The notes under the pieces are model-generated. The model worked only from the letters and a program-made list of their open reading frames with translations, did no database searches and was not told the origin of the DNA. A DNA stretch of 41,279 nt from Hyphomonadaceae bacterium (GTDB lineage Bacteria > Pseudomonadota > Alphaproteobacteria > Caulobacterales > Aquidulcibacteraceae): contig JAKFWO010000021.1 in the NCBI GenBank assembly GCA_021731815.1, positions 1 to 41,279 of the forward strand, given 5' to 3'. Both the position numbers and the translations under genes were made by a program. Positions 2,716-34,914 of this stretch are shown piece by piece. The first letter of the stretch is position 1. Each line of letters opens with the position of its first letter.

Positions 2716-3381
2716 TTGGCCTCGGATCTCCCGCTTTTTTCCTTTTCGGCAGACGGGCGCGACGGATTTGTCGTCGGCAGCTCGAATGCCGCTGTTTTGG
2801 CGCTCCTGTCGAAGGCTGCCTATTGGCCGTCGGGGACATTGTGGTTGACCGGGCCGGCAGGTGCCGGCAAATCCCGTCTGGCGAAAATATGGGCGGAGGA
2901 AAATGACGCGCGTTTGCTGTGCGGGCAAGGAATGGCCGAAGTCAGCCTGATCTCCCTGATCGAAGGGCCGGGAAAGGCCTGGGTCGTGGACAATGCCGAG
3001 ACTGTTCCCACCGAACGCCTGTTTGATTTTCTCAATCTGGCGCGTGAGGCATCCGGACAGCTTCTTCTCGTTTCGCGGCTTGGGCCAGCCGAACTGGTAC
3101 GCAATCACCCCGATCTTGCCTCGCGGCTGTCGGCAATGCCGGTGGCAACCCTTCTCGAGCCGGACGAGGATATGGCCCCGCGACTTCTCCTGGCGCTTGC
3201 GGCGCAGTCGGGCTTTGTGCTGAGCCCCACGGCCGCCCAATATGGCGCGCGGGTACTCGGGCGGACCTATGCGCGCGCGCATGAATGGGTTGCCCGGTTA
3301 CAAGCTCTCGCCGAGCCGAATGTAGGCTTGCCACAGGCGCGCAGCAGCCTGATAGAAGGCTTTGACGATGACGGAGAATGA
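2716..3381 (+). CDS. hdaA: HdaA, DnaA regulatory inactivation protein
   Basis: AAA+ protein related to the DnaA ATPase domain. In the family it binds the DNA polymerase sliding clamp and stimulates DnaA-ATP hydrolysis, limiting re-initiation of replication. The N-terminal DLPLF fits a clamp-binding peptide. A Walker A motif GPAGAGKS lies at residues 46-53 and a degenerate Walker B (WVVDNAE) at about 89-95, as expected for Hda. At 221 residues it has no DnaA domain IV, which excludes DnaA itself. The start is a TTG at 2716 with AAGGAG about 9 bases upstream. The stop overlaps the start of ppk by 14 bases, implying coupled translation. Confidence 0.88.
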
Positions 3382-5641
3382 TATGCCGCGCGCCAGGGCA
3401 CCCAGGGGTGGGAAATCCCATGCCGCTGTTCCATCCAGCGACGTTTTACCTGCAACCATGCGCAAGGCGGCCACGCCGGGAATCCTCGAGACAACCGACC
3501 CGACCGCATTTTTTGCCTCGCCGGGGCGGTTCTTCAACCGTGAGCTTTCCTGGCTCGCTTTCAATACGCGCGTTTTGGAGGAGGCAGGAAATTCCCGGCA
3601 CCCGCTGCTTGAAAGGCTGCGGTTTCTGTCAATTTCGGCCGGCAATCTCGATGAATTCTATATGGTTCGTGTATCGGGCCTGCGCGAGCAATTCAAAGCC
3701 GGAATCGTCGCCCGCTCGCTCGATGGACTGAGTGTCAGCGAACAATTGCTGGCGATCAATGCGCGGGCGGGTGCGCTGTTGCAGGCGCAGCAGCGGATCT
3801 GGCTGGATCTGCGCGAGGAGATGCGGGAGACGGGGCTCCTTGTCCTCGAATCCGGGGATCTCGACAAGGATGATCTCGAGCATCTCGGTGTCGTATTTGC
3901 TGAACAGGTGCTGCCGGTCCTCACCCCCCTCGCCATTGATCCGGCCCATCCCTTTCCGTTCATCCCCAATCTGGGCTTTGCGATTCTCTTGCGTCTCAAA
4001 CGCTTGGCAGACGGCAAATTGATGAATGCGCTGGCACCATTGCCGCTCCATTTGCCGCGATTTTATGAACTCCGGACCCGGGCGGCGAAAAAGAATGACC
4101 GGCATCTTCGCCGGTTCATTCCGATCGAAACCCTCGTGCTCACTTTTCTGCAGCAATTATTTCCAGGTTATAGCCGTGTCGCCCATGGCTGCTTTCGCAT
4201 CATCCGCGACAGCGACGTTGAAATCCTTGAAGAAGCCGAGGATCTGGTTCGTCAGTTCGAAACCATGCTCAAACAGCGCCGGCTGGGCGAGATCGTGCGG
4301 CTCAAATTCGAAGCCGCGATGCCCGAGAGCCTGCAAGCGTTCCTCCTGACCGAATTGCGGGCCGAGCCCCAGGACATGGTGCCCGTGGAGGGTATTCTGG
4401 GGCTGGAGCGTCTCAAGGAACTGATCGTCAGTGGGCGGCCCGAACTGGTGTTCCCCCCCTTTGAACCGCGTTATCCCGAGCGCGTGCGGGATTTCGGTGG
4501 CGATTGTTTTGCAGCGATCCGTGCCAAGGACCTCATCGTTCACCATCCCTACGAATCCTTTGACGTCGTGGTCGAATTTCTGCGTCAGGCTGCGCGCGAT
4601 CCTGATGTCGTGGCGATCAAGCAGACCCTCTACCGGACCTCCCATAATTCACCGATCGTGGCCGCGCTTATCGAAGCTGCCGAGGCCGGAAAAAGCGTCA
4701 CGGCTTTGGTGGAGCTCAAGGCCCGTTTCGATGAGGAAGCCAATCTGCGCTGGGCCCGCGACCTTGAACGCGCGGGCGCGCAGGTCGTTTATGGGTTTGT
4801 CGAATACAAGACCCATGCAAAGGTCAGCCTGGTTGTGCGGCGCGAGGCCGAGCAATTGCGCAGCTATGCCCATTTCGGCACCGGCAATTATCATCCGATC
4901 ACCGCGCGGGTCTATACGGATCTGTCCTTGTTCACGGCCGATCCGGCCCTGGGCCGGGACGCCAATCGCGTGTTCAATTTCATTACCGGCTATGCGCGGC
5001 CTGCCGAGCTCGAGCGCATCACCCTTGCCCCCATCAATCTCAGGCAATCGCTGCTGGAATTGATCGAGGACGAGATCGCCCATGTCCGCGCCGGGAAGCC
5101 GGGCGCGATCTGGGCCAAGATGAATGCGCTGGTTCACCCCGAAATTATCGATGCCCTGTATCGCGCAAGCCAGGCCGGTGTGCAGGTCGACCTCGTGATC
5201 CGTGGCATCTGCTGCCTGCGGCCGGGCCTTCCGGGATTGTCGGACAATATCCGGGTCAAGAGCATTGTCGGGCGATTTCTCGAACATGCCCGGGTCGTGG
5301 TGTTCGGCGCGGGTGCCGCACTGCCCCATCCGGGGGCAAAGGTCTATATCTCGTCGGCCGACTGGATGCCGCGCAATCTGGACCGGCGGGTTGAGGTGAT
5401 GTGTCCGATCCTCAACCCGACCGTGCATCAGCAGGTACTTTCGCAGATCATGATGGCCAATCTCAATGATGAATCCCAATCCTGGATTCTTGGCCCGGAA
5501 GGCGGATATCGTCGCGTGCCGGCGTCGGAAGAGGATTCCTTCGCCGCCCATTCCTATTTCATGACCAATCCGTCTTTGTCAGGACGTGGCAAGGCGCTCG
5601 CGGGTGCCGCCGGCAAGCCGCAAGAGAGGCCAAAATCGTGA
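3368..5641 (+). CDS. ppk1: Polyphosphate kinase 1
   Basis: Reversibly polymerises the gamma phosphate of ATP into inorganic polyphosphate through a phospho-histidine. The 757-residue length fits PPK1. The N-terminal domain opens with [19 protein letters not shown] and a [18 protein letters not shown] stretch typical of the family. The catalytic half carries EYKTHAK with His near residue 483 and HFGTGNYH with His near residue 502, the same 19-residue spacing as the two histidines of E. coli Ppk. Both lie in PLD-like folds. The ATG at 3368 has GAAGG 8 bases upstream and sits inside the end of hdaA. The last codons overlap the GTG of ppx. Confidence 0.96.
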
Positions 5642-7203
5642 ATTTCCTCGATGATTTGCTCGATCGCCATTCGCCGGAAAGACCGGAAAGAGAGAAGGGG
5701 CTGATCCTGTCGCCGGCAACGCGTCGCGAAATCGCAGTGATCGATGTCGGGTCGAATTCGGTGCGCCTTGTGCTGTACCGGGTAGAGGGCCGCTCGCTAA
5801 CGCCGATCCTCAACGAAAAGACGCTCGCCGGTCTCGGGCGCGATCTCAGCCGCAGCGGGCGTTTGTCGGCACCGGGAGTGGAGGCTGCGCTCGTGGTCCT
5901 CAAACGCTTCCGTGCGGTGCTTCAGGCGCTCGATGTCAAGGTGGTGCGCGCGGTGGCAACCGCCGCCGTGCGCGAGGCCAGCGATGGTGCCGCCTTTGTG
6001 GCGCGCGTGCGCGAGGAGACGGGGCTCATCCTGCGCGTACTGACCGGGGCCGAGGAAGCGCGTTTTTCGGCCCTGGGCGTGTTGGCGGGTGCCCCTGAAG
6101 CCCATGGCATCGTTGGTGATCTGGGTGGATCGAGCCTTGAGCTGGTTCCCGTCTCCGGTGGAGAACCGGGTCAGGGCGAGACGATGGCGGTCGGACCGCT
6201 GGCGCTGATGGGGCTGACACGCAACGCGCTTGCGGATGCGGCGAAACTCCGCGCGGAAATCGATGAACGCTTGCGCGACAGCACAGTGCTTCCGGCCCCG
6301 GGCCAGGTGTTCTATGCGGTAGGCGGTGCCTGGCGCGCGCTGGCCAAATTCGACATGGAGCTCTCGGACTATCCCCTGCATGTCCTCCAGAATTACGAGA
6401 TTCCCGCCGAACGCGTGATCGAACGGGTCGAACAGATCCTGAAGCCCAATCGCAAGATCCTCCAGCTCCTTCAGGCAATTGCCGGAAGGCGGGCCGAAAC
6501 CCTGCCTTATGCGGCGCTGGCGCTGGAAGGCGTGTTGAAGAAAGGCGGATTCTCCCGCCTTCTGATCTCGGCCTATGGACTTCGCGAAGGCGTGTTGTTT
6601 GACGAGATGAGCCCGGCCGATCGTGGACTCGATCCCTTGTTGTCGGGCATTGCGGCCATGGCGCATTCCGACGCGCGCTCGCTGCGATTTTGTCAGGCGC
6701 TCGAAATCTGGGTCGCGCCCGCCCTGTCGCTGGTACCGCCGGCTTTTGGTGTGGCGCGAGACCGGGTGCTCACGGCGGCGGCGGCCAATCTTGCCGATCT
6801 GGGCTCCGGGCTGCACCCCGATCACCGCGGCGAAATCGTCTTCAACCTGACCCTGCGCGGGGCTTTTTCGGGAGCCACCCATGCGGAGCGGGCATTTCTG
6901 GCGCTCGCTTTGTTGCGCCGCCATCAGCGTGCTTTGGGACCTGCCGCTCTCAGCGCCCGCAGCCTGCTCGATGACAGCCAGGCCGTGCGGGCTGAGGCGC
7001 TCGGTGCCGCGTTGAGACTGGGGGCGGAATTGTCGGGCCGCTCGGCTGCAATTCTCGGCCATTGTGCTTTGCGGGCCCAACCCGATGCCATCCTGCTGGT
7101 CCTGCCGGACACGCAAAGGGATCTGGTGTCGGAATCGATCGAGCGCCGGGTCGCCCAATTGGGCGAAGGCCTTGGCGTGGCGGGGCGCGTGGTGTCGCAA
7201 TAG
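5638..7203 (+). CDS. ppx: Exopolyphosphatase, Ppx/GppA family
   Basis: Hydrolyses terminal phosphates from polyphosphate (or pppGpp in GppA members), opposing the kinase encoded just upstream. The ASKHA-type actin-like fold is recognisable from the phosphate-binding segment [17 protein letters not shown] near residue 34 and from [10 protein letters not shown] near residue 160. A C-terminal HD-like helical region follows and completes a 521-residue protein of normal length. The GTG start at 5638 overlaps the ppk stop in a GTGA arrangement, so the two enzymes are probably translated together. The N-terminal 30 residues are charged and not conserved in my memory of the family. Ppx and GppA cannot be separated by eye. 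Confidence 0.92.
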
Positions 7204-7205
7204 AG

Positions 7206-7244
7206 GCGGCGGCTGCATGACCCCGAAGGCTCCGCAACCGCCGC
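7206..7244. terminator. Hairpin between convergent ppx and TonB receptor genes
   Basis: The only gap between these convergent genes contains an imperfect hairpin. The left arm at 7206-7216 (GCGGCGGCTGC) pairs at 10 of 11 positions with 7234-7244, around a 17-base loop. A short T-containing stretch follows on the plus strand. It could end transcripts from either side, but the U-tract is poor. Confidence 0.38.
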
Positions 7245-7267
7245 TCCATTTTCAGGACGAATGGCGC

Positions 7268-9775
7268 TCAGAACGAGTAGCGCAAGGAAGCCGAGATGGT
7301 GCGTCCATTGATCGGCCGTGCCCGCACGATGCCATTGGCTGGCAACACGCCTTCTTCGGCTTCGGTCAGGCCGAAGGCATTGCCGGCATTATTGACATTG
7401 AGCGACGCCAGAAGGCCCTTGGCCAGTTCGAAATTCAGGAAGAAATTGACCTGGGCAAAGCCCGGCAATTCGAGAACATTATTATCCTGGGCGAAAGACG
7501 ATGTGGTTCCCACGATATTGGCACCGACCGAATGCCCCCTGAAAGTATAGGACGGCGTGATCAGATAAGTGAGCTTGGCCTGACGACGGGGCCGGTTGCC
7601 GATATTGAGCGGATTTTGTGCATCCCGGCGGATTTCCGAATCCGTCCAGGTCACGCCGCCCGTAAGGCTGAAGCCGCCCAGCGAATAATCGGCTTCGGCT
7701 TCGATACCGAAGGCCCGGGTCGTCCGGTCGATCGCCAGCCCCGAAGTGATCTCAAAATTGCTTTCCTCGCTATCGGCATAGAAGCCGGTGAGAAATGCAT
7801 TGAGATTCCCCGGAATCGCATCGCGGGAGCGATATTTTAATCCGATTTCTGCCTGTTTGACGATATCGACGCCGATCCCGTCATCGATCAGGCCCCCGCT
7901 GGCATTGAAACCCGATCCACCGAGCACCAGGCGATCGCCATTGCCGACCCCGCCGCGGCTGTAGCGGGCAAACAGGGCCAGATTATCCAACAGCGTATAA
8001 TTCGCGCCAAAGGAATAGGAGAAATAGTCCACCGAATAATCAATGGTGAAGAGATTGGTCGGATCAACTGTCCCGATATTGGTTTCGGCCGGGGTGATAT
8101 TTCCGTCGCCATTGACATCGATGGTGCGCGGAAGGAATCCGCCGACATTGGGATTGGGGCTGGCGAGATTGCTGGTTCCGGTGCCGGCCAGATTGTCAAA
8201 CCGGAAGGAGGCATCCAGATTCAGCCGGTCATTCTTCCATTGCAACGCCCAATAAAGCGCGTCGCGGTCGAAGGAGAGATCGAAGGTCGGGTCAAAGATT
8301 CCAAATGCCCGCACGCCATTGACTGTCTGCGCGACCGGGCTGGGGCCTGTCGTGTTGAAGACGTCGATCAGGGCGGCATTGGACCCCAGCGCTTCCTGGA
8401 GGAAGAAGTTGAAAGACCACCGGGTCTCGACCTGCTCGATCGCCTTGTAATAGCCGGCGCTGGCTGAAAGTTCGCCGCCAGCAAAGGCGAAGCTGCGCTC
8501 GATCTTGAGATCATTGACGAACTGGCTGAGATCGTCCACCGCGACATCGAACAACAGATTGTCGATCACAAGGCCATTGCCATTGAGCGTGGCCGGATTG
8601 GTGATGACCTGCCCGGCATTGGGACCATTGGCAAAACGCAATTGGTTGCCGCCAAAGCTCGCCGCCACATTGGCCGCATTGAGTACGCCACCGGTAAAGG
8701 TGCCGACAAAGCCGCCGCGATTGTCAGAATAGCGGATCTTGTCTGTGATCTGCCAGCCGCCAAGGACCTCGAAATTGAACTCCGCCCCGATCGCGGTCGA
8801 CAGGGCGCGCACGCCGTCGCGAATATCGGTGACATTAAGCGCGCCGGAATCCACGCGGGTATTCTGCAACAGGAAAGGCGTCGAAAGTGTCTGGTCGCGG
8901 AAATCAAAGCCGGGAATGGGTGCTGCATTGCCACCGGCCAGCGATACGGGCGCGGGCAGGTATGGAATTGTCCGGTCATTCAGATGTTTGAAATAGAGCC
9001 GAACATAACCTTTCTCGAATTTCTTGGTGATATTGAACTTGATCTGCCCGCCTTCCTCGGCATTGAAACCTGCCTCGCGTGCGCCTTCACCCGTGCGGTA
9101 AAAGCCGCCGACATGGAAATGCAGGCCATCGGCGATCGGGGCACCATATTCGAAATCCACCCGCGTATGGCCATAACCGATGCCGCGCGTCACCCCGAAT
9201 GAGCCGCCTTCATTGCGTCCGGTCTTCGAAATGAGATTGATGACCGCACCGGGCGCGTTGGAAGCCAGTGTCGAGGAGGAACCACCCCGAACCGCCTCTA
9301 CCCGGGCAACGGTGGTGTCATAGCGCAGGAAATTGTCGGAATTGCCGAATGTGATGTCGCCAAAGGACAGGACTGGCAGTCCATCTTCCTGCAATTGTAC
9401 GAATTTCGCCCCGCCAGTAGTCACGGGAATGCCCCGGACCTGGATATTGGCGTTGTTTTCGCCGCCCGAACTTTCCGAACGGATACCCGGAATATTGCGG
9501 AAGATTTCGGAGGTGGAGCGCGGCGCAACATTGATGATTTCTGCGGCCGAGAGATCGCTGACCGATACCGAAGACTGGAACTTGCTGATCCCGGAACCCA
9601 CTGCGGCAGTCACCACGATCTCGTCGAAGCCCACGCCATCGGCGGCGTCTTCCGTTTCGGTTTGTTCTGAAGGATTGGCTGGCGGTGTCGTTTCCTGCGC
9701 CCGGGCGGAGGCCGAGAACAGCGCTCCAAAGGCGGCGGCAGCCAGCAAGGCACGTCTCAGTTTCGAGCTGTTCAT
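7268..9775 (-). CDS. TonB-dependent outer-membrane receptor
   Basis: Outer-membrane beta-barrel that imports a substrate with energy from TonB-ExbBD. The ATG at 9775 is chosen over an upstream in-frame codon because GGGGAGGA lies 6 bases ahead and a signal peptide (ALLAAAAFGALFSASARAQ) follows at once. After a Glu-rich linker comes DEIVVTA, a TonB-box-like segment, then the plug domain (SEIFRNIPGIRSES, VQVRG-like IQVRGIPV, VEAVRGGSSSTLASNAPGAV). A barrel then runs to the terminal aromatic residue in ASLRYSF. The 835-residue length is normal. One extracellular stretch (8084-8119) encodes an EF-hand-like calcium loop. The divergent symporter gene and operator-like sites suggest sugar or other carbon substrate import; the substrate is not shown. 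Confidence 0.93.
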   Translation of the reverse strand: MNSSKLRRALLAAAAFGALFSASARAQETTPPANPSEQTETEDAADGVGFDEIVVTAAVGSGISKFQSSVSVSDLSAAEIINVAPRSTSEIFRNIPGIRSESSGGENNANIQVRGIPVTTGGAKFVQLQEDGLPVLSFGDITFGNSDNFLRYDTTVARVEAVRGGSSSTLASNAPGAVINLISKTGRNEGGSFGVTRGIGYGHTRVDFEYGAPIADGLHFHVGGFYRTGEGAREAGFNAEEGGQIKFNITKKFEKGYVRLYFKHLNDRTIPYLPAPVSLAGGNAAPIPGFDFRDQTLSTPFLLQNTRVDSGALNVTDIRDGVRALSTAIGAEFNFEVLGGWQITDKIRYSDNRGGFVGTFTGGVLNAANVAASFGGNQLRFANGPNAGQVITNPATLNGNGLVIDNLLFDVAVDDLSQFVNDLKIERSFAFAGGELSASAGYYKAIEQVETRWSFNFFLQEALGSNAALIDVFNTTGPSPVAQTVNGVRAFGIFDPTFDLSFDRDALYWALQWKNDRLNLDASFRFDNLAGTGTSNLASPNPNVGGFLPRTIDVNGDGNITPAETNIGTVDPTNLFTIDYSVDYFSYSFGANYTLLDNLALFARYSRGGVGNGDRLVLGGSGFNASGGLIDDGIGVDIVKQAEIGLKYRSRDAIPGNLNAFLTGFYADSEESNFEITSGLAIDRTTRAFGIEAEADYSLGGFSLTGGVTWTDSEIRRDAQNPLNIGNRPRRQAKLTYLITPSYTFRGHSVGANIVGTTSSFAQDNNVLELPGFAQVNFFLNFELAKGLLASLNVNNAGNAFGLTEAEEGVLPANGIVRARPINGRTISASLRYSF

Positions 9776-11910: not shown

Positions 11911-12867
11911 CTATTTCGGCTGGAGTGCGGTGACGACCTGGCCAGGCGAAATGGTTCCCGGAACCGGACGTTGGGGCGCAAGCCCGGGCCGCACTGCCGT
12001 GTCCGGGGTCCCTCGAACCGGTGGCCGGACATTCACCCGCCCACATTCCCTGATTTCCACACCGTTGGGTAACCGGGTGGCCGCATCGCCGCAGGCCTTG
12101 GCCAATTGCGCGCGCGTCAATCCCTGGGCGGTGCGAAAATCCACCCCCGTCAGGATGGCACCCTCAAAATCGGCCTCCCGCAGATCAGCGCGTGCAAAGC
12201 GCGTTCCCGTTAGCACTGCTTCCGCGAAGACCGCACCCCGCAAATCGGCACCACCCAGATTGGCGGCGGTGAGATTGGTGCGTGAGAAATTGGCCTCCGC
12301 GGCTACCGCTTCGCCCAAATTTGCCCCCGCCAGCACTGCGCCCGAGAAATCAGCCTTGAGCCCACTGAAGCGAATCATCACCGCACCGGTGAAATTCGAT
12401 CCGACCAGATTGGCACCGTTGAAATTGGTGACGCTGAGATCGGCTCCCGCAAAATCGGCACTGGTTCCGGATGCCCCGGCAAAGGTCGCCCCATGGGCTT
12501 TGACGCCACGAAAACTGACGCCGGAAAACCGTGCGCCCGCCAGACTCGCGCGGGTCAGATCAGCTCCGGTGAATACGACCCGCGCCAATTGCGCAAAGCT
12601 GAGATCCGCCCCCGTGAAATCCGAATCGCTGAAATCCGATCGGACAAAGTGAACGCCAGAAAAGCGCCGCCCGCGAAAATCGCATTTGGTACAGGAGCCT
12701 GAATATCGCTTGTCCAGCACGACCACAACGGAATCGCCATTTGCCTGGCCGTCAGGCACGCGAAAGGTGATCTGTGCATGCGCCGTCGCACTGGCCGTGA
12801 CGGCCATTGGACCCAAAACGCACAACTGAACCAGTTTCCGGATAATCATAGGCGACAAACTAGCCAC
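11911..12867 (-). CDS. Exported pentapeptide-repeat protein, long form
   Basis: Predicted periplasmic right-handed quadrilateral beta-helix. A signal peptide ends at TASATAHAQ. A CTKC pair near the start of the mature domain precedes roughly 35 repeats of the A(D/N)LxX type (for example FTGADL, LAGARF, LGGADL) spanning about residues 60-250. A terminal module GLTRAQLAKACGD...LPNGVEIREC follows and is shared with the neighbouring gene. The last 45 residues are a Pro-rich tail. The start is uncertain: a GTG at 12867, a TTG at 12858 or an ATG at 12849 all give a signal peptide, with GAAGAA nearby. The molecular role is unknown; pentapeptide proteins that bind gyrase are cytosolic, so that role is unlikely. 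Confidence 0.88.
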   Translation of the reverse strand: MASLSPMIIRKLVQLCVLGPMAVTASATAHAQITFRVPDGQANGDSVVVVLDKRYSGSCTKCDFRGRRFSGVHFVRSDFSDSDFTGADLSFAQLARVVFTGADLTRASLAGARFSGVSFRGVKAHGATFAGASGTSADFAGADLSVTNFNGANLVGSNFTGAVMIRFSGLKADFSGAVLAGANLGEAVAAEANFSRTNLTAANLGGADLRGAVFAEAVLTGTRFARADLREADFEGAILTGVDFRTAQGLTRAQLAKACGDAATRLPNGVEIRECGRVNVRPPVRGTPDTAVRPGLAPQRPVPGTISPGQVVTALQPK

Positions 12868-12962: not shown

Positions 12963-13505
12963 TCACTTGCAACGGGGGATGGACAGGCCGGCAGGCAGAT
13001 GGGTTTCATTGTCACCGCAGGCGGTGTCGAGCCGGGATTGTGTCAGACCACGCACGGCATCGAGATCGGCACCCGAAAAATTGGCGCGGGCGAGAATCGC
13101 GCCGGTAAAATCGGCCCGCCCGAAATAGGAGCCTGTGAAGGTTGCATCCGAGAGATCGGCACCGGAAAAATCGGCATGCAGGAAGCGCCCCGCAAAGGCA
13201 TTGACGAAAGACAGATCTGCCCCGCGCAAATTGGCCTTGTCGAGCGTAATCGCCACCATTTCGGCCTGCCGCAATCGTGCACGCGCGAACGAACGTCCCG
13301 ACAGCACCTTGTAATTGAGATCGGCCTGAAAGAGGTTGCAGCCCGGGCAGGCCGATCCCCGCTGAACACGCGCGACTTCAAGCGCATCCTGGGCATGAGC
13401 GGGCGTTGCAATTGCGGCCAGGATTCCAGGCATCGCACCGGCCAGAGCCACAAATCGGAGGGCCCGGGACAGGACGCAAGACAAAGAGGATGCAAGGCGT
13501 GTCAT
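12963..13505 (-). CDS. Exported pentapeptide-repeat protein, short form
   Basis: Smaller partner (180 residues) of the adjacent pentapeptide protein and probably a paralogue. The ATG at 13505 has GGGAG about 9 bases upstream and starts a signal peptide ending ATPAHAQ. The mature domain begins with a CPGC pair directly before the first repeats (CNLFQADL), runs through about 15 pentapeptides (LRGADL, FSGADL, FTGAIL) and ends in GLTQSRLDTACGD...LPAGLSIPRC. The paired cysteines at both ends match the long form and could be disulfide caps. It lies 117 bases downstream of the NrdJ-like gene on the same strand. No function can be assigned. Confidence 0.88.
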   Translation of the reverse strand: MTRLASSLSCVLSRALRFVALAGAMPGILAAIATPAHAQDALEVARVQRGSACPGCNLFQADLNYKVLSGRSFARARLRQAEMVAITLDKANLRGADLSFVNAFAGRFLHADFSGADLSDATFTGSYFGRADFTGAILARANFSGADLDAVRGLTQSRLDTACGDNETHLPAGLSIPRCK

Positions 13506-13622
13506 TTTGGCGCTCCCTGACGGCTGGAACCAATGCCTTCTCACAGCAGAAACCCGCTCTGGTGCTTTGAAAATGCTCCGGAGAACGGGTCACTCTGCCA
13601 TTCTCCCGCCAGACCACGCAAA

Positions 13623-16394
13623 TTACGCGCCAGGATCAGCCGATTGCGCCGCGCGGGTCTCAAAGCCACAAGTTGCACAGCGCGCACCATCGCCGGAGCT
13701 TGCCAGGGTGAAATGACCGCAACGGGAGCAAGGCTCCCCCGAAAATGCGCCAAAGGGGCCGCTGGCAGCGGAGAATTCGGCCCCGGCATCCGGTCGTGCC
13801 TCTCCCGATTTCGGGCGTATATCGCCTTCGCGGGGTTTGAAGCGCACGATATTGTCGGGCAGGGTTCCCCGGCTGAAGCCCTTGGAGATCAGCCGCCGCG
13901 CCGTTTCCGCCGGGTCGTCGTCGGGTAGCAGCAAGGGACGGCGCGACAGGCCATCGCCATGCAATTCCTGTGGGTCCATATTGGCGAGATCCTGACGGTC
14001 GAGATAGCTCACCGCCAGTTCCCGGAAGATATAATCGAGGATCGACGTCGCCTGGCGGATGGAATCATTGCCGCTGACCGTCCCTGATGGCTCGAAGCGT
14101 GTGAACACAAAGGCATCCACAAATTCTTCCAGCGGAACGCCATATTGGAGGCCGATGGAGATCGCGATGGCAAAATTATTCATCAGCGAGCGGAAGGCGG
14201 CACCTTCCTTGTGCATGTCGATAAAAATTTCTCCGAGGCCGCCATCATCGAATTCGCCGGTATGGAGATAGACCTTGTGGCCACCGATCGCGGCCTTCTG
14301 GATATAGCCTTTGCGACGATCGGGAAGGCGGCGGCGTTCGATCGGACGCTCTATTTCCCGCTCGACCACGCGTTCGATGATTTTTTCGGGAAATGCCGGG
14401 GCCGGGGCCTTGCGCGAGATCAATCGATCGGTGACCCGCGCCTCGTCATGCGCATCCTCGAGCCGCGCGGCCAGCAGGGATGACGCCGCACCCGCCCCGC
14501 GGCGGCGCAGTCGCAGCCGGGTGATTCCGGAACGCACGGCCAGTTCCAGTGCAGCGCGAAGCTCCGATGGGGCGGCATCATTGGCAAATTCCAGCCTGAC
14601 CTCGACCTCGCCATCGAGCGCCGCGGAAATGGCAGCAGCCAAGGACAATTGGTCATGGATGGAAGACGGGCCGGGCTCATCGCGCTCGGCCGCGGCAAAG
14701 ACCCGGCGCGCGGCCGGCGGCAGTGCCGCGCAATCCGAAAAGGCGCCCGCGCCGCAGACAAAGGCCTCGGCGGCGTCGATCGTTTCCTTCCCATAGCCGA
14801 GCGCAACGAGAAAATCCCGCCCATCGGCGCGTTCGGGGTCGAGCTCGAGCGTCCGAAACGGGCCATTGCCGAGTGTCACGACACCAAATAATTGCGAAAA
14901 ATCGGGAGCCGCTGCCGCGGCGGACTCAAGAGCCACCAAAATCGGGGTCGGAAGCCCGCGCGCGCGCAGGCACTCGAGATCAATTCCCGGCGACGCCCGC
15001 AGGCTGCCGGACCCCAGTGCCCAATCGAGCGCAGCCTGCCGGGTTCCCGGCGATGTTCCCATAGCATCGAGTGCGATCTCCACGGAAGGGCTGGCGCGGC
15101 GTCGTCCGGACGGACCCGCGACGATGAGCGGGAATTGGCTCTGCACGCCGATGCTGTCGCAAGCCAGCACCGGGCAGGTCAAACCAGGGTCCCGCACCGC
15201 ACAAAACAGGCCCGGAACCGTTTCCTCGACAGCCTTTCGGACGAGGCGCACAGCATTGCCAGCACTTTCCCGTGCCTGCGGTGCCGCAAAAGCCAATCCC
15301 TGGCGCATGATAAAGGCGGCAAAGCCGGTGAGGATCACCACGCCTTGCGTCGACTTTTCCGGCGATGTTCTGGCACCGGATTCGGCGGCAAAAGCTGCAA
15401 GCTTCGCTGCTGTCCCCAGCGCTTCGCTGTTCAGGCGTCCATCGTCATCGATACATGCCGCGAGATCGAGCGCCAACGCACATTCAGCGGCATCCCCGCG
15501 GGTGCGGAAACGCACGGAACCGGCACCATCCTCCCACAGGCTGGCCAGCATCTGGTCAATTTTGGCTCCGTCCGCCCGGATGCCTTGCTGGGCCCCTGCA
15601 AACAGGGTTTCGGGACAGAAAATGTCGAGCGGATCACAGGCATCGCGATGCGCGTCGGCAAGGGCTGCGCCGCCCCGGGTCAGTGAAGGCGAGGGCAGGC
15701 CCGCTTTGGCTCTGGCCAGACATTCGGCAATGGCATCGGCGGGGACGCCGGCGAGCATCGCCTGTCCGATTCGCTGCCGCAACACGCCTGGTCCCGAAAA
15801 ATCGGTTCCGGCATGGGCAGCCTCACGAATGCCGCGCAGATGCCCGTCAAACATTGCAAGGCCTGCCGCAAGTGCCGAAGATCTGGCGCGATCGGCGGTC
15901 CGGGCATTCAGCCGCGCGACGAAATCTGGCGCATTGGCAGAGAACCGGGCGCTGCCAGGCGTGTCCTGAACGAAACCGATGACCCGCCGGGCAAAGAGGG
16001 CCCGCAATTCATCGAAAGCAAGGGTCGCAAGGCGCGGTGTGCCGATGATGCCCCGATGAAGCGCCGTTGCAATAATCTCCGCTGCCATGGTGTCATATGC
16101 AGCCGGAAGATCAAAGGGCGCTGCCGGATCCCGTGTCTCGCATTGGCGGACCGTTTCGCGCAATTTTTTTGGAGCCGCCATGATGACCGCCGGGTCGGCC
16201 AGTGATTGTGACGACATCAGAAAATTCAGGGCGCTGTCGACCACCTCGCCCGGCCAATCGGGCGGACATAGCACCTCGATCGGCATTTCGTCGGGAATTG
16301 GCCCGGAAAACGCCTCTTCGGACTGGACCCGGCGGACAGACAAAGGCCCCCAGATGTGCCCTGATTGCTGGCTCCACTGACGGATGATGTTCAC
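13623..16394 (-). CDS. NrdJ-derived pseudoenzyme with TSCPD domain and zinc ribbon
   Basis: A 923-residue relative of the adenosylcobalamin-dependent ribonucleotide reductase NrdJ that appears catalytically dead. The C-terminal TSCPD domain (about residues 690-780) is near identical to NrdJ as I recall it: RRKGYIQKAAIGGHKVYL, GEIFIDMHKEGAAFRSLMNN, FRELAVSYLDR. The tail (about 887-912) keeps the NrdJ-like zinc ribbon CSRCGHFTL...CATCG. The first 640 residues align only loosely (CIDDDGRLN near 315, CDSIGVQSQF near 411, FLVALGYGKETIDAAEAFVCG) and lack the active-site NPCSEY-type and PTGTIG-type motifs; about 250 residues are missing compared with usual NrdJ. The GTG start has GGGAG 8 bases upstream. 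The intact frame argues against decay; a regulatory or scaffolding role is inference. Confidence 0.8.
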   Translation of the reverse strand: MNIIRQWSQQSGHIWGPLSVRRVQSEEAFSGPIPDEMPIEVLCPPDWPGEVVDSALNFLMSSQSLADPAVIMAAPKKLRETVRQCETRDPAAPFDLPAAYDTMAAEIIATALHRGIIGTPRLATLAFDELRALFARRVIGFVQDTPGSARFSANAPDFVARLNARTADRARSSALAAGLAMFDGHLRGIREAAHAGTDFSGPGVLRQRIGQAMLAGVPADAIAECLARAKAGLPSPSLTRGGAALADAHRDACDPLDIFCPETLFAGAQQGIRADGAKIDQMLASLWEDGAGSVRFRTRGDAAECALALDLAACIDDDGRLNSEALGTAAKLAAFAAESGARTSPEKSTQGVVILTGFAAFIMRQGLAFAAPQARESAGNAVRLVRKAVEETVPGLFCAVRDPGLTCPVLACDSIGVQSQFPLIVAGPSGRRRASPSVEIALDAMGTSPGTRQAALDWALGSGSLRASPGIDLECLRARGLPTPILVALESAAAAAPDFSQLFGVVTLGNGPFRTLELDPERADGRDFLVALGYGKETIDAAEAFVCGAGAFSDCAALPPAARRVFAAAERDEPGPSSIHDQLSLAAAISAALDGEVEVRLEFANDAAPSELRAALELAVRSGITRLRLRRRGAGAASSLLAARLEDAHDEARVTDRLISRKAPAPAFPEKIIERVVEREIERPIERRRLPDRRKGYIQKAAIGGHKVYLHTGEFDDGGLGEIFIDMHKEGAAFRSLMNNFAIAISIGLQYGVPLEEFVDAFVFTRFEPSGTVSGNDSIRQATSILDYIFRELAVSYLDRQDLANMDPQELHGDGLSRRPLLLPDDDPAETARRLISKGFSRGTLPDNIVRFKPREGDIRPKSGEARPDAGAEFSAASGPFGAFSGEPCSRCGHFTLASSGDGARCATCGFETRAAQSADPGA

Positions 16395-16530: not shown

Positions 16531-16710
16531 ATCGTCGTGGATTTCGATCGCTTGTGACGCGCCGTGAATGGACCGCCTTATTGGCACCGCACGCCGAATG
16601 GGCTAAGGGAGTCTGCGAATGCTGCCCCGTGTCCGGATTCGGGGAGTGATTCGGGAAATTTCGGGATATTCCCCGCTTGGGTAATGTTCTCCTCCCGCGA
16701 AAGGCTATGC

Positions 16711-17124
16711 GTGCTCAGGAAAATCTTTTTGTGGTGGAACGATGCGACCATCGGGGCCCTGTTCGATATCGGCCGGCGCGGGCAATTCATTGGCGACGAT
16801 GATTATGGCAATCGCTATTTCGAGGATCGCGAGGCAAGTCTCGAGGGTCGCAAGCGGCGTTGGGTGACCTATCGCGGCTATACGGATGCCTCACGCGTGC
16901 CGCCGGACTGGCATGGCTGGCTGCATTACACTTTCGACGACCCGCCCACCTACGCCCCTTTGAAGGCGAAGGCGTGGGAAAAGCCGCATTCCCCGAATTT
17001 GACCGGCACCTTGTGGGCGTATCGACCGCAGGGCAGCCTCGCAGGGACGGGCAAGCGCGCGGCCAGTGCTTCCGATTACGAGGCGTGGCAGCCGGAGACC
17101 GATCCCGGGACCCCGCCACAATAG
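16711..17124 (+). CDS. NADH:ubiquinone oxidoreductase NDUFA12-family subunit
   Basis: Accessory subunit of respiratory complex I, the bacterial homologue of mitochondrial NDUFA12 (B17.2), found in Alphaproteobacteria. The 137-residue product has the family pattern: IFLWWNDATIGALFD, then GDDDYGNRYFEDRE, RRWVTYRGYTDASRVPPDWH, GWLHYTFDDPP and WEKPHSPNLTGT. The GTG at 16711 is chosen because it has AAAGG 7 bases upstream and places the conserved W-W-N segment at the usual distance from the N-terminus. An ATG at 16684 would add nine unrelated residues. It is followed by mlaD and a DUF2155 gene, a conserved alphaproteobacterial order. Confidence 0.93.
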   Translation: MLRKIFLWWNDATIGALFDIGRRGQFIGDDDYGNRYFEDREASLEGRKRRWVTYRGYTDASRVPPDWHGWLHYTFDDPPTYAPLKAKAWEKPHSPNLTGTLWAYRPQGSLAGTGKRAASASDYEAWQPETDPGTPPQ

Positions 17125-17242: not shown

Positions 17243-17737
17243 ATGACAAAACAAAGCCTTGAAACCATTGTTGGTGCTGCCGTGATCGCCGGTGCTTTCG
17301 GATTCCTCGCCTTCGCGCTGCAAAACGGAGCCGGTGCGGGCGTCCCGGCGGGTGCCTATACGCTGTCTGCGCGGTTCAATCAGGCCAGCGGAATCGCGCC
17401 GGGTGCAGATGTCCGGCTGTCGGGCGTCAAGGTCGGCTCCGTCTCGGCAATCACGCTCAATACAAAGACCTACCAGGCCGAAGTCAGTCTTGCCATTGCC
17501 TCATCCATCCCGGTTCCTGACGATTCCGTGGTCAAGGTCACTGCGGACGGGCTGCTGGGCGCGCCTTATATCGCGATTGATCCGGGGGCATCGGATGTCA
17601 ATCTCAAGGCCGGGCAGAGTTTCGAATATGCGCGCGGCTCTGTCGATCTTTTGACGCTTTTGTCGACTTTTATACAATCGGGCAGTTCGCCCGCGCCCGA
17701 TCCTGCCGATGCAGGAACGGAAAATGTACCGGAATAA
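17243..17737 (+). CDS. mlaD: MlaD, MCE-domain lipid transport protein
   Basis: Periplasmic-facing, membrane-anchored substrate-binding subunit of the Mla phospholipid transport system, which maintains outer-membrane lipid asymmetry. A single N-terminal transmembrane helix (about residues 8-27) is followed by one MCE domain (about 38-115) with YTLSARFNQASGIAPGADVRLSGVKVG and DGLLGAPYIAIDPG. A short C-terminal helix and an acidic tail complete 164 residues, a normal MlaD size. The ATG at 17243 has AAGGTGG just upstream. The ATPase and permease partners (mlaF, mlaE) are not in this window and must be elsewhere. Confidence 0.93.
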   Translation: MTKQSLETIVGAAVIAGAFGFLAFALQNGAGAGVPAGAYTLSARFNQASGIAPGADVRLSGVKVGSVSAITLNTKTYQAEVSLAIASSIPVPDDSVVKVTADGLLGAPYIAIDPGASDVNLKAGQSFEYARGSVDLLTLLSTFIQSGSSPAPDPADAGTENVPE

Positions 17738-17753
17738 ATCGGGTGGGCGGAAC

Positions 17754-18398
17754 ATGGCAGGGCGTCTGATGTCGGGAAAACCAAATATGGCGGCTCTCCG
17801 GAATATTGTGGGGATTGGTATGGCGTCGCTGGCGGGGGTGCTGTTCCTCCTCGGTGCGGCTTTTGCGCAATCGGCACCCCCTTCGCTCCCCCCTGCCGCG
17901 CCGGCGGCCGAACCCCCGACAGCCGCGCCTCCGCTGGCCCAGCCTGCCACGCCCGAAACGCTTCCGGGGGTCGATTCAACCGAAATCCCCCCGGGCGTGG
18001 TGGAAGGCGAACCGCTTCCACCGCCGGTGATCGCCGCCGAGCCCATCATCGGGCGGCTTGCCATCCTGCGTGGGCTCGACAAGGTTACGGGCCGGACCGT
18101 GGATTTCCGGGCCCCGATCGGACAAAAGGTGCGGTTCAAATCGCTGATTTTAGAAGCAAAAGGCTGCGAGAAAGCTGCCCCTGAAAGCCTGCCTGAAGTG
18201 TCGATCTATGTCGAGGTTGACGAGGCCGCCCGCCAGATCGCCCGCCCGCATGTGCGCAAGGGAGCAAATTCAGTCGCGGCGCAACCGGAAATCAGCATCA
18301 ACCGGATTTTCTCGGGATGGCTGTTTGCCTCGAGCCCCGGCCTTTCTGCTATCGAACACCCGGTCTATGACGTCTGGGCGATTGATTGCAGGATTTGA
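17754..18398 (+). CDS. DUF2155 domain-containing exported protein
   Basis: Conserved alphaproteobacterial protein of unknown function. The N-terminal hydrophobic segment (GIGMASLAGVLFLLGAAFAQ) acts as a signal peptide and is followed by a Pro/Ala-rich stretch of about 60 residues. The DUF2155 domain follows: AILRGLDKVTGRTVDFRAPI, RFKSLILEAKGC, and the closing FSGWLFASSPGLSAIEHP and YDVWAIDC, with two conserved cysteines that could pair. Starts at 17709 (inside mlaD), 17724, 17754 and 17820 are all in frame; 17754 is a compromise. The 3' end overlaps the end of the oppositely oriented aat gene by 34 bases. Confidence 0.85.
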   Translation: MAGRLMSGKPNMAALRNIVGIGMASLAGVLFLLGAAFAQSAPPSLPPAAPAAEPPTAAPPLAQPATPETLPGVDSTEIPPGVVEGEPLPPPVIAAEPIIGRLAILRGLDKVTGRTVDFRAPIGQKVRFKSLILEAKGCEKAAPESLPEVSIYVEVDEAARQIARPHVRKGANSVAAQPEISINRIFSGWLFASSPGLSAIEHPVYDVWAIDCRI

Positions 18399-19015
18399 GC
18401 ACCGCGCAAATCGCCAGGTAACGCCTGGAAATCCCCGATGCCGACAATCGCAGCGGCCAGTTTCTGCCGGAACAGCGCGCGCTCTACTTCAATCGCCCCG
18501 AATTGGATCAGATGCTGCGTCAAGAATTGCGTATCGAGAAGCTGAAACCCGCCGGCTATCAACCGGGCGACCAGAAAGACCAGCGCAATCTTTGAGGCAT
18601 CGCGGGCACGGGAAAACATGCTTTCGCCGAAAAAGGCGGCACCGACCGCCACGCCATAAAGCCCGCCAACCATTTGCTCGCCCTGCCAGCATTCCACGCT
18701 ATGGGCGTGACCAGCATGGAACAGGCCCTGATAACATTCGGCAATGGGCGAATTGATCCAGGTTTCGCTGCGATCGGAACTGGGTGCCGCACAGGCGGCA
18801 AGGACCTCGGCAAAGGCGCTGTCCACGCGAATATCGAAGGGATCGGTACGAATGAATTTCGCCAGCCGTCGCGGGACATGAAACCCGTCGAGCGGCAATA
18901 TGCCCCGTTTTTGGGGATCGAGCAGGAACAGACGCGGGTCATGGCGGCTGTCGGCCATGAAAAACTGGCCACGCCGATAATGGAAAAGAGCTTCCTCCGG
19001 CGTCAGCGTGGTCAT
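18365..19015 (-). CDS. aat: Leucyl/phenylalanyl-tRNA-protein transferase
   Basis: Transfers Leu or Phe from aminoacyl-tRNA to the N-terminus of proteins starting with Lys or Arg, making them substrates for ClpS/ClpAP (the N-degron pathway). The family core is present: WINSPIAECYQGLFHAGHAH, SVECWQGEQMVGGLYGVAVG, FFGESMFSRARDASKIAL and GFQLLDTQFLTQHLIQFGA. The length of 216 residues is normal for the short alphaproteobacterial form. It lies 28 bases downstream of accC on the same strand, so it is probably the last gene of the accB-accC-aat transcript. It runs convergent to, and overlaps, the DUF2155 gene. Confidence 0.95.
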   Translation of the reverse strand: MTTLTPEEALFHYRRGQFFMADSRHDPRLFLLDPQKRGILPLDGFHVPRRLAKFIRTDPFDIRVDSAFAEVLAACAAPSSDRSETWINSPIAECYQGLFHAGHAHSVECWQGEQMVGGLYGVAVGAAFFGESMFSRARDASKIALVFLVARLIAGGFQLLDTQFLTQHLIQFGAIEVERALFRQKLAAAIVGIGDFQALPGDLRGAQILQSIAQTS

Positions 19016-19043: not shown

Positions 19044-20381
19044 TCAGCGCTTCAGATATTCTTCCAGCCAGTGAATATTGTAATTGCCATCGAGAATGTC
19101 AGGTTCCTTCAGCAGGCGCTGGAACAGCGGGATCGTCGTTTTCACTCCGCCCACCACCATTTCGCCCAGCGCACGGCGCATGCGCAGAATGCATTCCTCC
19201 CGCGAGCGGCCGGAAACGATGAGTTTTCCGATCAGGCTGTCATAATAAGGCGGGATGTCGTAGCCGGTATAGATCGCGGAATCGAGCCGCACGCCGAGCC
19301 CGCCAGGGGCATGAAACTCGGTGATCCGGCCGGGTGAGGGGGCAAAGGTCTGCGGGTCTTCGGCATTCACCCGGCATTCCATGGCCCAGCCATTGAACTG
19401 CACCTCGTCCTGGGTAAAGGACAGGCGGGCACCATTGGCGATGCGGATCTGTTCGCGCACAAGGTCGACGCCCGTGATCATTTCGGTCACCGGATGCTCG
19501 ACCTGGAGCCGGGTATTCATCTCGATGAAATAGAATTTTCCCTCGGCCCAGAGAAACTCGATCGTGCCGACCCCGAGATAGCCGAGCTTGCGGATGGCGG
19601 CGGCGACGATTTCGCCAATCTTTGCGCGTTCTTGGGCATTGAGCGCCGGCGAGGGCGCTTCTTCCAGAACCTTTTGGTGGCGACGCTGGAGCGAACAATC
19701 GCGCTCGCCCAGATGGACGACATTGCCATGGCTGTCGGCAATGACCTGAATTTCAATATGGCGCGGCTTGTCGAGATATTTTTCAAGATAGACGCTGTCA
19801 TCACCAAAGGCGGTTCGGGCTTCCGAGCGCGCCGTGGAAAAGGCCTCGGCCAATTGTTCCGGGCTGCGGGCGACCTTCATGCCGCGTCCACCCCCGCCGG
19901 CGGCGGCCTTGACCAGAACCGGATAACCGATCTCGCCGGCCACACGCCGCGCTTCCTGGACCGTGGCGATCGAGCCATCCGAACCCGGTACGCAAGGAAT
20001 GCCGGCACTCAACACTGCCTTTTTGGCGGCGATCTTGTCGCCCATCAGGCGGATATGGGCGGGCCTTGGCCCGATAAAGGTCAGCCCATGGGCCTCGACG
20101 ATTTCGGCAAAGCGGGCATTTTCCGAAAGAAAGCCATAGCCGGGATGCACAGCCTGGGCGTGGGTGATCTCGGCCGCCGAAATGATCGAGGGAATATGCA
20201 GATAGGATTTGGCCGAGGGCGGCGGTCCGATACACACGCTTTCATCGGCCAGCCTTACATGCATGGCCTTGGCATCCGCAGTCGAATGCACGGCCACGGT
20301 GGCGATTCCCATCTCCTTGCAGGCCCGATGGATGCGAAGCGCGATCTCGCCACGATTGGCGATCAGAATTTTTTCAAACAT
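19044..20381 (-). CDS. accC: Acetyl-CoA carboxylase biotin carboxylase subunit
   Basis: ATP-dependent carboxylation of biotin carried on AccB, the first half of the acetyl-CoA carboxylase reaction that commits carbon to fatty acid synthesis. All three domains are present: the N-terminal [17 protein letters not shown], the ATP-grasp domain with the [13 protein letters not shown] glycine-rich loop near residue 160 and [16 protein letters not shown] near 287, and the C-terminal domain with [15 protein letters not shown]. The length of 445 residues matches AccC. The ATG at 20381 has no strong ribosome-binding site. The accB gene lies 75 bases upstream and aat 28 bases downstream. Confidence 0.97.
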
Positions 20382-20456: not shown

Positions 20457-20960
20457 TCATTCGATCACGATCAGCGCCTGGCCAAATTCGACCGGCTGGG
20501 CGTCCTGCACACAGATCTCCAGCACCTTGCCCGCTTTGGGTGCCGGAATCGGGTTCATGGTCTTCATTGCTTCGACGATCAGCAGGGTTTGTCCCTCGCT
20601 CACCATGTCGCCCACCTTGCAGAAGGGTGCGGCTTCGGGCTCTGGCGCGAGATAGACCGTCCCCACCATGGGGGAAGGCACCGTGCCCCGCTTTGTCCCG
20701 CCGGACGGAGTTTCCGCAGGCGATGATGTGGGAGCATATCCGGATGATGCGCCCGGTACAGAACCTTGAATCTGGCCCGGCATTGGTGCGTGATAGACGG
20801 GGGCAGGTGCGTAGTGAATTGCGCCTCCCCCGCGGCTGATCCGCAATTTGAGATCCGCGTGCTCAACCTCGATTTCGGTAAGATCAGTGTCTCTCAGGAT
20901 CTGGGCGAGCTCGCGCACGAGACCCGGATCAATACCAGATATTTTGCCCACAGCAGCCAT
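20457..20960 (-). CDS. accB: Acetyl-CoA carboxylase biotin carboxyl carrier protein
   Basis: Carries biotin for acetyl-CoA carboxylase. The N-terminal helix region (residues 1-45: IDPGLVRELAQILRDTDLTEI) is followed by a flexible Pro/Ala/Ser linker and the biotinyl domain. The latter has PSPMVGTVYLAPEPEAAPF and the biotinylation site EAMKTMN, whose Lys is modified by BirA. The ATG at 20960 is chosen to match the usual short N-terminus; the frame stays open upstream to 21080 without family similarity. A GAGGG lies about 11 bases upstream of it. The 167-residue length is typical. The gene opens the accB-accC-aat transcript and faces a divergent CopL-like gene. Confidence 0.95.
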   Translation of the reverse strand: MAAVGKISGIDPGLVRELAQILRDTDLTEIEVEHADLKLRISRGGGAIHYAPAPVYHAPMPGQIQGSVPGASSGYAPTSSPAETPSGGTKRGTVPSPMVGTVYLAPEPEAAPFCKVGDMVSEGQTLLIVEAMKTMNPIPAPKAGKVLEICVQDAQPVEFGQALIVIE

Positions 20961-21137
20961 CGCCGTCAAATTCCCTCTTCCCGACACAGATCGCGTCCGC
21001 CGGTTCGACGCTCTCATACCCCACGCCCATTGAAATGTCCCGCGCTTACCGTCGTTTCGCCGATCAGGGGCATGATTCATCAGGGGACGCCACCCATAAA
21101 CCGCTTTGACGGGAGTCGGCTACAAAAAATGCTGAAC

Positions 21138-34689: not shown

Positions 34690-34914
34690 TTTTGCCCCGT
34701 CAACCACAGATTTCGGATGTTTCCGATTTGACCCGGTTCATCATGCACTTTTCCGGCAGGAAAGTCCAATCCCCAGGGTTACGCCCATGTAATTCCGGTC
34801 GATTGCGGCGACAATAAAACCCGGAAATTGCCCATGTCCGGATTCATCGATAGGGGTGTTGGTGGTAGCCCACCGGATTCCCCTGGCGGGCCATCGGTAC
34901 AGAAGGCAAAAGGA

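Follow-up and report, generated by a model that had tools for sequence, protein, structure and literature searches.

Retention of a shortened NrdJ lacking the ribonucleotide reductase motifs in the Caulobacterales

The nrdJ-derived gene of the window

The window, i.e., the whole analysed stretch of 41,279 nucleotides from Hyphomonadaceae bacterium (contig JAKFWO010000021.1), carries on its reverse strand, at positions 13623-16394, a gene related to nrdJ, which encodes the vitamin B12-dependent class II ribonucleotide reductase (RNR). Its open reading frame (ORF) begins with GTG, remains open throughout and, stop codon included, encodes a protein of 923 amino acids. A preliminary description of this DNA had read it as an intact gene for a catalytically dead relative of NrdJ, descended from NrdJ over its full length, and our analysis bears out these points. 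With the NCBIfam model of alphaproteobacterial NrdJ (NF005736), the protein gives an E-value of 2e-106 and 357 bits, which does not reach the cut-off of 1737; the Pfam TSCPD model (PF12637) matches residues 702-794 at 40.9 bits (gathering cut-off 22.8). Based on alignment, the start of the protein coincides with residue 1 of catalytic NrdJ, and the two proteins are collinear, except that the window protein lacks the finger loop and has other residues in place of the PTGTIG block. The open frame and this collinearity rule out a frameshift or a merger of genes. The gene and its parts are as follows:

13623-16394, reverse strand: non-catalytic NrdJ derivative gene, 923 amino acids, GTG start, stop included (ORF and NrdJ profile)
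14475-16394, reverse strand: residues 1-640, N-terminus and barrel of NrdJ in remnant, collinear form (alignment, model and matches in the Protein Data Bank)
15486-15503, reverse strand: approximately residues 298-303, place of the missing finger loop that carries NPCSE and the radical Cys (alignment; model strands 293-297 and 304-310)
14475-15185, reverse strand: residues 404-640, C-terminal half of the barrel; the NrdJ match begins just past the lost PTGTIG block (profile and alignment)
13980-14336, reverse strand: residues 687-805, TSCPD domain with a predicted, weakly IscU/SufU-like fold, the most conserved part (Pfam, conservation and model)
13659-13745, reverse strand: residues 884-912, zinc ribbon with Cys 889, 892, 906 and 909; the NrdJ redox Cys pair is missing (alignment)

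The AlphaFold model of the whole protein has a mean predicted local distance difference test (pLDDT) score of 62.7, with many barrel blocks at 80-95, and residues 58-174 and the linkers below 50. The predicted fold matches the barrels of RNR large subunits, i.e., Thermotoga maritima NrdJ (3o0q, Z 18.1, 332 residues aligned) and Rhodobacter sphaeroides NrdJ (7b9q, Z 16.3, 381 residues aligned). In the window, no B12 riboswitch or other RNA was found at the Rfam gathering score, and no tRNA.

Loss of the reductase motifs

Homologues were divided into a short form, the dead and shortened NrdJ derivative, and a long form, the catalytic NrdJ. As the preliminary description had noted for the window protein, the short forms are the smaller ones, with a median length of 913 amino acids (n=54, start inside the locus) versus 1236 for the long forms (n=70). 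The motif alignment comprised 82 short forms, whose sequences were read, and 33 of the 98 long forms, and the reach of partial sequences was checked at each position. The radical Cys and the NPCSE finger loop are absent in the window protein and in all 82 short forms (78 reach this place), whereas all 33 long forms have them. At the first Cys of the active site (the ACF position), the column is empty in all 82 short forms (73 reach it), while 32 of the 33 long forms have Cys; the second Cys (the TAC position) is retained by all 33 long forms and, among the 78 short forms covering this place, by L091 alone. At this Cys pair, the window protein has a gap and a Glu. Specificity loop 2 (SGGT..RR) occurs in none of the 82 short forms (73 reach) versus 91 of 98 long forms. 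The PTGTIG block is likewise absent in the short forms (0/82, 81 reach) and present in all 98 long forms, a count that is partly so by construction because the long forms were sorted by the PTG pattern. Judged from these alignments, reductase chemistry is impossible for the short forms by the known route. The loss proposed for the catalytic half of the window protein is therefore shared by its relatives. The earlier suggestion of a nucleotide sensor fares less well, since sensing of deoxynucleoside triphosphates (dNTPs) via the usual specificity site is unlikely with loop 2 gone.

One apparent intermediate, L008 (positions 1-2119 of a contig from a metagenome-assembled genome labelled 'Brevundimonas'), combines TAC and PTGTIG with a ribbon of the short type. 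It joins a Paracoccus-like catalytic barrel to a Brevundimonas-like tail and was rejected as most likely a chimeric mis-assembly.

The C-terminal ribbon had been described as almost that of NrdJ. This holds for the zinc ligands: all four Cys are present in 81 of 82 short and 33 of 33 long forms, and the window protein has its CxxC pairs at 889 and 906. It does not hold for the two redox Cys, neither of which is found in any of the 82 short forms versus both in 33/33 long forms. L084 has one extra Cys, which precedes the second zinc pair by two places and is not at a redox position, and L193 is the only one of the 82 without a ribbon. For Stackebrandtia nassauensis NrdJ, the proposal is that four Cys bind zinc and that a redox pair made up of C933 and C945 re-reduces the active site (PMC5704485). 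The loss of the redox Cys and retention of the zinc Cys thus indicate that the electron path disappeared along with the active site, and that the structural zinc site was retained. The short form L218 (positions 5314-8106, genome G391) has lost its zinc ribbon and keeps TSCPD.

Other reductases in the genomes

The window's own genome encodes the class I enzyme, with NrdA at 1012 bits (cut-off 620) and NrdB at 568 bits (cut-off 237). A PF02867 search of this genome returned NrdA only, with no other NrdJ, no class II barrel and no NrdJa. The second, catalytic nrdJ that the preliminary description had envisaged was therefore not found in these searches, which gave class I NrdA and NrdB only, and in this genome the short form cannot be the partner or decoy of a true NrdJ. 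Across the order, NrdB was present in 159 of 160 genomes sampled, with the short or the long NrdJ alike; the exception, G154, has the long form. This near-universal presence may explain why the loss of NrdJ catalysis was tolerated; it does not single out NrdAB as the partner.

A full-length second RNR large chain (PF02867) was found in 22 of the 60 genomes of the window's family, and the dead protein occurs with or without it. Three such chains were inspected (L237-L239; G031:C1:1676683-1678083, G019:C11 and G013:C39); they are class II enzymes of the NrdJ_Z type, approximately 750-780 amino acids long, with NPCGE present and six-Cys tails of their own. Since the own genome has no such chain, the short form cannot in general act as the partner of a class II enzyme. 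These data bear on the possibility that the short form works like NrdJb, as a separate C-terminal subunit that would pass electrons in trans to a catalytic RNR subunit. The presence of TSCPD and a zinc ribbon, as in NrdJb (PMC9669993, PMC5704485), and the further large chains of the family speak for it. Nevertheless, the absence of both ribbon redox Cys from all 82 short forms mostly refutes it, the own genome lacks a class II barrel to be served, and the extra chains of the three relatives bring their own tails; we regard this role as highly improbable.

Alternatively, the short form might bind NrdA or NrdB and tune the class I enzyme, as an allosteric antenna left over from NrdJ, given that both subunits are encoded in the own genome and NrdB almost throughout the order, and that a barrel of RNR origin might associate with that of NrdA. 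However, NrdB is equally present beside catalytic NrdJ, so that no specific association is seen, and specificity loop 2 is lost. This explanation seems unlikely to us, if far less so than the NrdJb-like one.

Selection on the short form

The ratio of nonsynonymous to synonymous substitution rates (omega) was estimated for 27 pairs of short forms with 78-99.5% DNA identity, which are not independent, and for 80 of 369 pairs of long forms (79 with a ratio of the two regions). Among the short pairs, the median omega is 0.129 for the barrel and 0.014 for the TSCPD core, with a median ratio of 0.075 and a ratio below 0.5 in 25 of 27 pairs. The corresponding medians of the catalytic NrdJ pairs are 0.143 and 0.068, with a ratio of 0.42 and a ratio below 0.5 in 51 pairs. 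When the whole C-terminal part was taken, linker and ribbon included, omega was 0.00-0.15 versus 0.08-0.31 for the N-terminal part in the short pairs, and no such skew was observed in 25 of 371 long pairs. The short protein is thus under purifying selection, as had been supposed from its open frame, and not decaying; TSCPD is its most constrained part, and the constraint is higher than in catalytic NrdJ.

Distribution within the order

In the window's family, a match was found in 54 of 60 genomes and in 44 of the 45 genomes of good quality. The order search, with mostly two candidates scored per genome, gave a match in 375 of 398 genomes. Scores to the NrdJ model are bimodal across the order: by score, 282 of the 398 genomes have the short form, with at most 407 bits among the matches listed, and 94 have a match of at least 648 bits (78 above the cut-off and 16 lower-scoring or in pieces). 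Neither form was found in 22, several of which are incomplete. Named members with the short form are Maricaulis salignorans (L004), Maricaulis maris (L006) and Marinicauda pacifica (L013).

Three side observations were made here. Both forms are missing from most genomes of the genus coded g24 (family f4), of which G260 has the long form, and from the g16 genomes G061, G085 and G101. G217 (C1:1106544-1108709), one of the 16, has an NrdJ barrel (model positions 1-741) in a frame of 902 amino acids without the C-terminal part, and nothing in it matched the short protein, the reverse of the dead forms. In the single-contig genome G239 of family f3, a TGA lies inside the match of a short form (L194, C1:1849316-1850095), a possible recent pseudogene.

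Taken together with selection, these counts address the view that the short form is a functionless, slowly decaying relic. The lost active site, the 22 genomes without either form and the stop inside L194 would fit such a relic. On the other side, TSCPD core motifs are present in 82 of 82 short forms, 44 of the 45 good family genomes hold the gene, and omega values of approximately 0.13 (barrel) and 0.014 (TSCPD core), which stay far under 1 across deep divergence, refute decay for most lineages. Of all the explanations considered, we hold this one to be the least probable.

The model organism Caulobacter appears to be included in this distribution. Genome G275 encodes a protein 98% identical to Caulobacter crescentus PopZ, together with an NrdJ homologue of the short form, L176, with 937 amino acids. 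The Caulobacter vibrioides control gave an NrdJ-model match below the cut-off, which is weak evidence because Escherichia coli and others also match, presumably via NrdA. A C. crescentus paper lists CCNA_01966 as NrdJ under nucleotide reduction in its B12 figure and names dNTP production as one of the uses of B12 (PMC6538847). This annotated B12-dependent reductase appears to be a short form. In the literature searched, which was available in part, we found no essentiality or phenotype for CCNA_01966.

Genomic context and origin

The short forms lie in a conserved slot, aroQ-accB-accC-aat / DUF2155-mlaD-NDUFA12 / nrdJ, whose markers in the window are as follows (Pfam and synteny):

16564-17124, forward strand: NDUFA12 gene, divergent neighbour and marker of the nrdJ slot
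17243-17737, forward strand: MlaD-domain gene, synteny marker
17709-18398, forward strand: DUF2155 gene, synteny marker
18365-19015, reverse strand: aat (leucyl/phenylalanyl-tRNA transferase), synteny marker
19044-20381, reverse strand: accC (biotin carboxylase), synteny marker
20457-21080, reverse strand: accB (biotin carboxyl carrier), synteny marker

We compared 28 regions, 21 with the short and seven with the long form. NDUFA12 is located upstream on the opposite strand in all 21 short-form regions, mostly within a few hundred bases, and in four of the seven long-form regions (L007, L017, L039 and L222; not L064, L223 and L224). Past NDUFA12 follow the MlaD and DUF2155 genes and then, where the stretch reaches, aat, accC, accB and aroQ. 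Among long forms from named records, NDUFA12, MlaD and DUF2155 are upstream in four of seven (L017, L036, L039 and L063; not L005, L053 and L073). The slot is therefore common to the short forms and to the catalytic nrdJ of several other orders, not of all.

No genome among 110 (60 of the family, 20 and 30 others) contained a short together with a long NrdJ of the same kind; all first-look candidates were scored in 109 of them, and double matches were neighbouring pieces of one gene. The preliminary description had proposed descent by duplication. The slot shared with catalytic nrdJ and the lack of a second copy led us to reject it; the slot would therefore be ancestral, and the gene would have been altered in place and not as a copy. 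In a gene tree of 39 short and 32 long forms, one branch separates the two with a Shimodaira-Hasegawa-like approximate likelihood ratio test (SH-aLRT) value of 100; the tree comes from a quick search, has some long branches and was rooted for drawing only. Its simplest reading is one origin of the short form within the order. Overall, the observation reported in the preliminary description is confirmed, and its interpretation is partly supported.

Elsewhere in the window, two genes for pentapeptide-repeat proteins lie directly downstream of the nrdJ-derived gene (11911-12867 and 12963-13544, both reverse strand). The polyphosphate kinase (3362-5641, forward strand) and exopolyphosphatase (5638-7203, forward strand) frames overlap by four bases. 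An open frame of 551 amino acids (33052-34707, reverse strand) has no Pfam match at E 0.001 and may not be a gene.

Dead forms in other orders

The class search gave a match in 122 of 190 genomes, or in 120 of 187 without the order's own. For 109 of the 120, the frame that holds the best match is at least 1120 amino acids long, the size of catalytic NrdJ (the sequence of G539 alone was inspected). Ten genomes outside the order with a short, partial or split match were inspected, G495 and G460 (short frames near contig ends) being left out. Three contain catalytic motifs (G539, G413 and G569). In the other seven, from six families, NPCxE and PTGT are both absent:

L227 (G405): 278 amino acids, TSCPD and a four-Cys ribbon without the redox pair
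L226 (G494): 272 amino acids, TSCPD only; single-contig genome of 1.2 Mb
L228 and L229 (G423 and G554): 526 and 533 amino acids, TSCPD found by Pfam
L230 (G496): 663 amino acids, TSCPD found by Pfam
L232 (G517): 963 amino acids, barrel remnant, no Pfam TSCPD match
L234 (G511): 730 amino acids, barrel remnant, no Pfam TSCPD match

All seven occupy the nrdJ slot, with NDUFA12 upstream, and Pfam finds TSCPD in five. Because the matching genomes of those orders mostly keep full-length frames, it seems likely that their dead forms eroded independently. In a tree of TSCPD only, a single clade of dead forms was not rejected (approximately unbiased test, p-AU 0.318).

The TSCPD domain and the proposed role

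Conservation among the short forms is highest in TSCPD, which includes the basic run R687..K700. A model of residues 670-923 has a mean pLDDT of 74.3; a Foldseek search with it returned nothing at an E-value of 0.001 or lower. In catalytic S. nassauensis NrdJ, the C-terminal region drives the oligomerisation induced by dATP or dGTP (PMC5704485), and the IscU-like domain of the long class II C-termini is given no reported role in PMC9669993.

We favour, with some reserve, the reading that the vertically inherited nrdJ of this lineage was remodelled in place into a non-catalytic protein, a pseudoenzyme in which TSCPD would do the work. What is left of the barrel would, with the zinc ribbon, form an oligomerising frame displaying TSCPD, which may bind a partner protein or a small ligand. 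The protein could then have a scaffolding or regulatory function, plausibly within nucleotide metabolism alongside the dNTP-making class I NrdAB.

Several observations weigh against this reading. The model of residues 670-923 resembles IscU/SufU at a Z of approximately 4.5, while lipoate-ligase domains score 5.2-5.8, the best being a lipoyltransferase at 5.8. No Cys ligand is conserved inside TSCPD, and this, together with the weak IscU/SufU match, makes an Fe-S scaffold unlikely. Catalytic NrdJ likewise has tighter constraint on the TSCPD core than on the barrel, if less strongly so, and two of the 27 short pairs do not have the strong skew. The barrel matters as well, since its omega is no higher than that of catalytic NrdJ. 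Nor is TSCPD in every case the part kept, as Pfam finds none in the dead forms of G517 and G511. Finally, the role seems dispensable in some lineages, as the 22 order genomes with neither form suggest.

An alternative gives TSCPD itself the decisive part, as a putative nucleic-acid or cofactor-handling domain with a job independent of reduction in all alphaproteobacterial NrdJ, the only job that the dead proteins would keep. It is consistent with the conservation of TSCPD and its basic run, and with the two small genomes of other families in which the domain remains alone (L226) or with the ribbon (L227); L232 and L234, dead forms with no TSCPD, argue against it. We consider it rather doubtful, though a stronger candidate than regulation of the class I enzyme.

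The favoured reading, remodelling in place into a TSCPD-presenting protein, can be extended to the class, more tentatively. Alphaproteobacterial NrdJ may be a protein with two jobs, in which an IscU-like TSCPD serves a role independent of ribonucleotide reduction. Several lineages, which comprise the greater part of the window's order and no fewer than four families beyond it, would have stripped away the reductase at its original locus while preserving this role, in small genomes with proteins of just 270-280 amino acids. We give this extension a little less than an even chance.

Proteins that score as diverged B12-dependent reductases in most of the order cannot be reductases by the known route, which changes predictions of B12 dependence. 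Caulobacter is apparently affected by this misassignment, as a figure legend lists CCNA_01966 among the B12-related pathways (PMC6538847). A class II RNR domain without a reported role is kept here without the enzyme and is open to Caulobacter genetics free of class II reductase activity.

Comparison with known systems

In the literature searched, mostly at the level of titles and abstracts, we found no description of a dead bacterial NrdJ. A 2022 phylogeny of the RNR family excluded sequences of fewer than 400 or more than 1100 residues (PMC9531940). In a few Alphaproteobacteria, two NrdJd occur together, one with and one without the C-terminal domain (PMC5704485), a case different from that of the short form.

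The closest known system is the alphaproteobacterial class II NrdJ (NF005736; R. sphaeroides 7b9p and 7b9q), with which the short form shares ancestry, locus, collinear layout, TSCPD, zinc Cys and barrel fold. Unlike this enzyme, the short form has no catalytic, specificity-loop or redox motifs, is approximately 300 amino acids shorter and scores far under the family cut-off. NrdJb of the split class II RNRs (PMC5704485, PMC9669993) also combines TSCPD, which is IscU-like, with a zinc ribbon, and the 278-amino-acid L227 is similarly laid out; however, the redox Cys pair is missing from the short form, and no NrdJa was found in its own genome.

The inactive homologues of the RNR large subunit (R1) in betaherpesviruses, such as UL45 of human cytomegalovirus (HCMV), are likewise relatives of the large subunit with no enzyme activity and another role (PMC5469499). 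A dead RNR with another role thus has a precedent outside bacteria. Unlike the short form, HCMV UL45 is viral, a homologue of the cellular R1 with a signalling role in host cells, and is a precedent and not a close relative (PMC5469499). The IscU-like domain in the tails of catalytic class II enzymes (PMC9669993) is the same domain as the TSCPD described here, whose model has the weak resemblance to IscU/SufU. In contrast to those tails, the domain here outlives catalysis, sometimes nearly alone.

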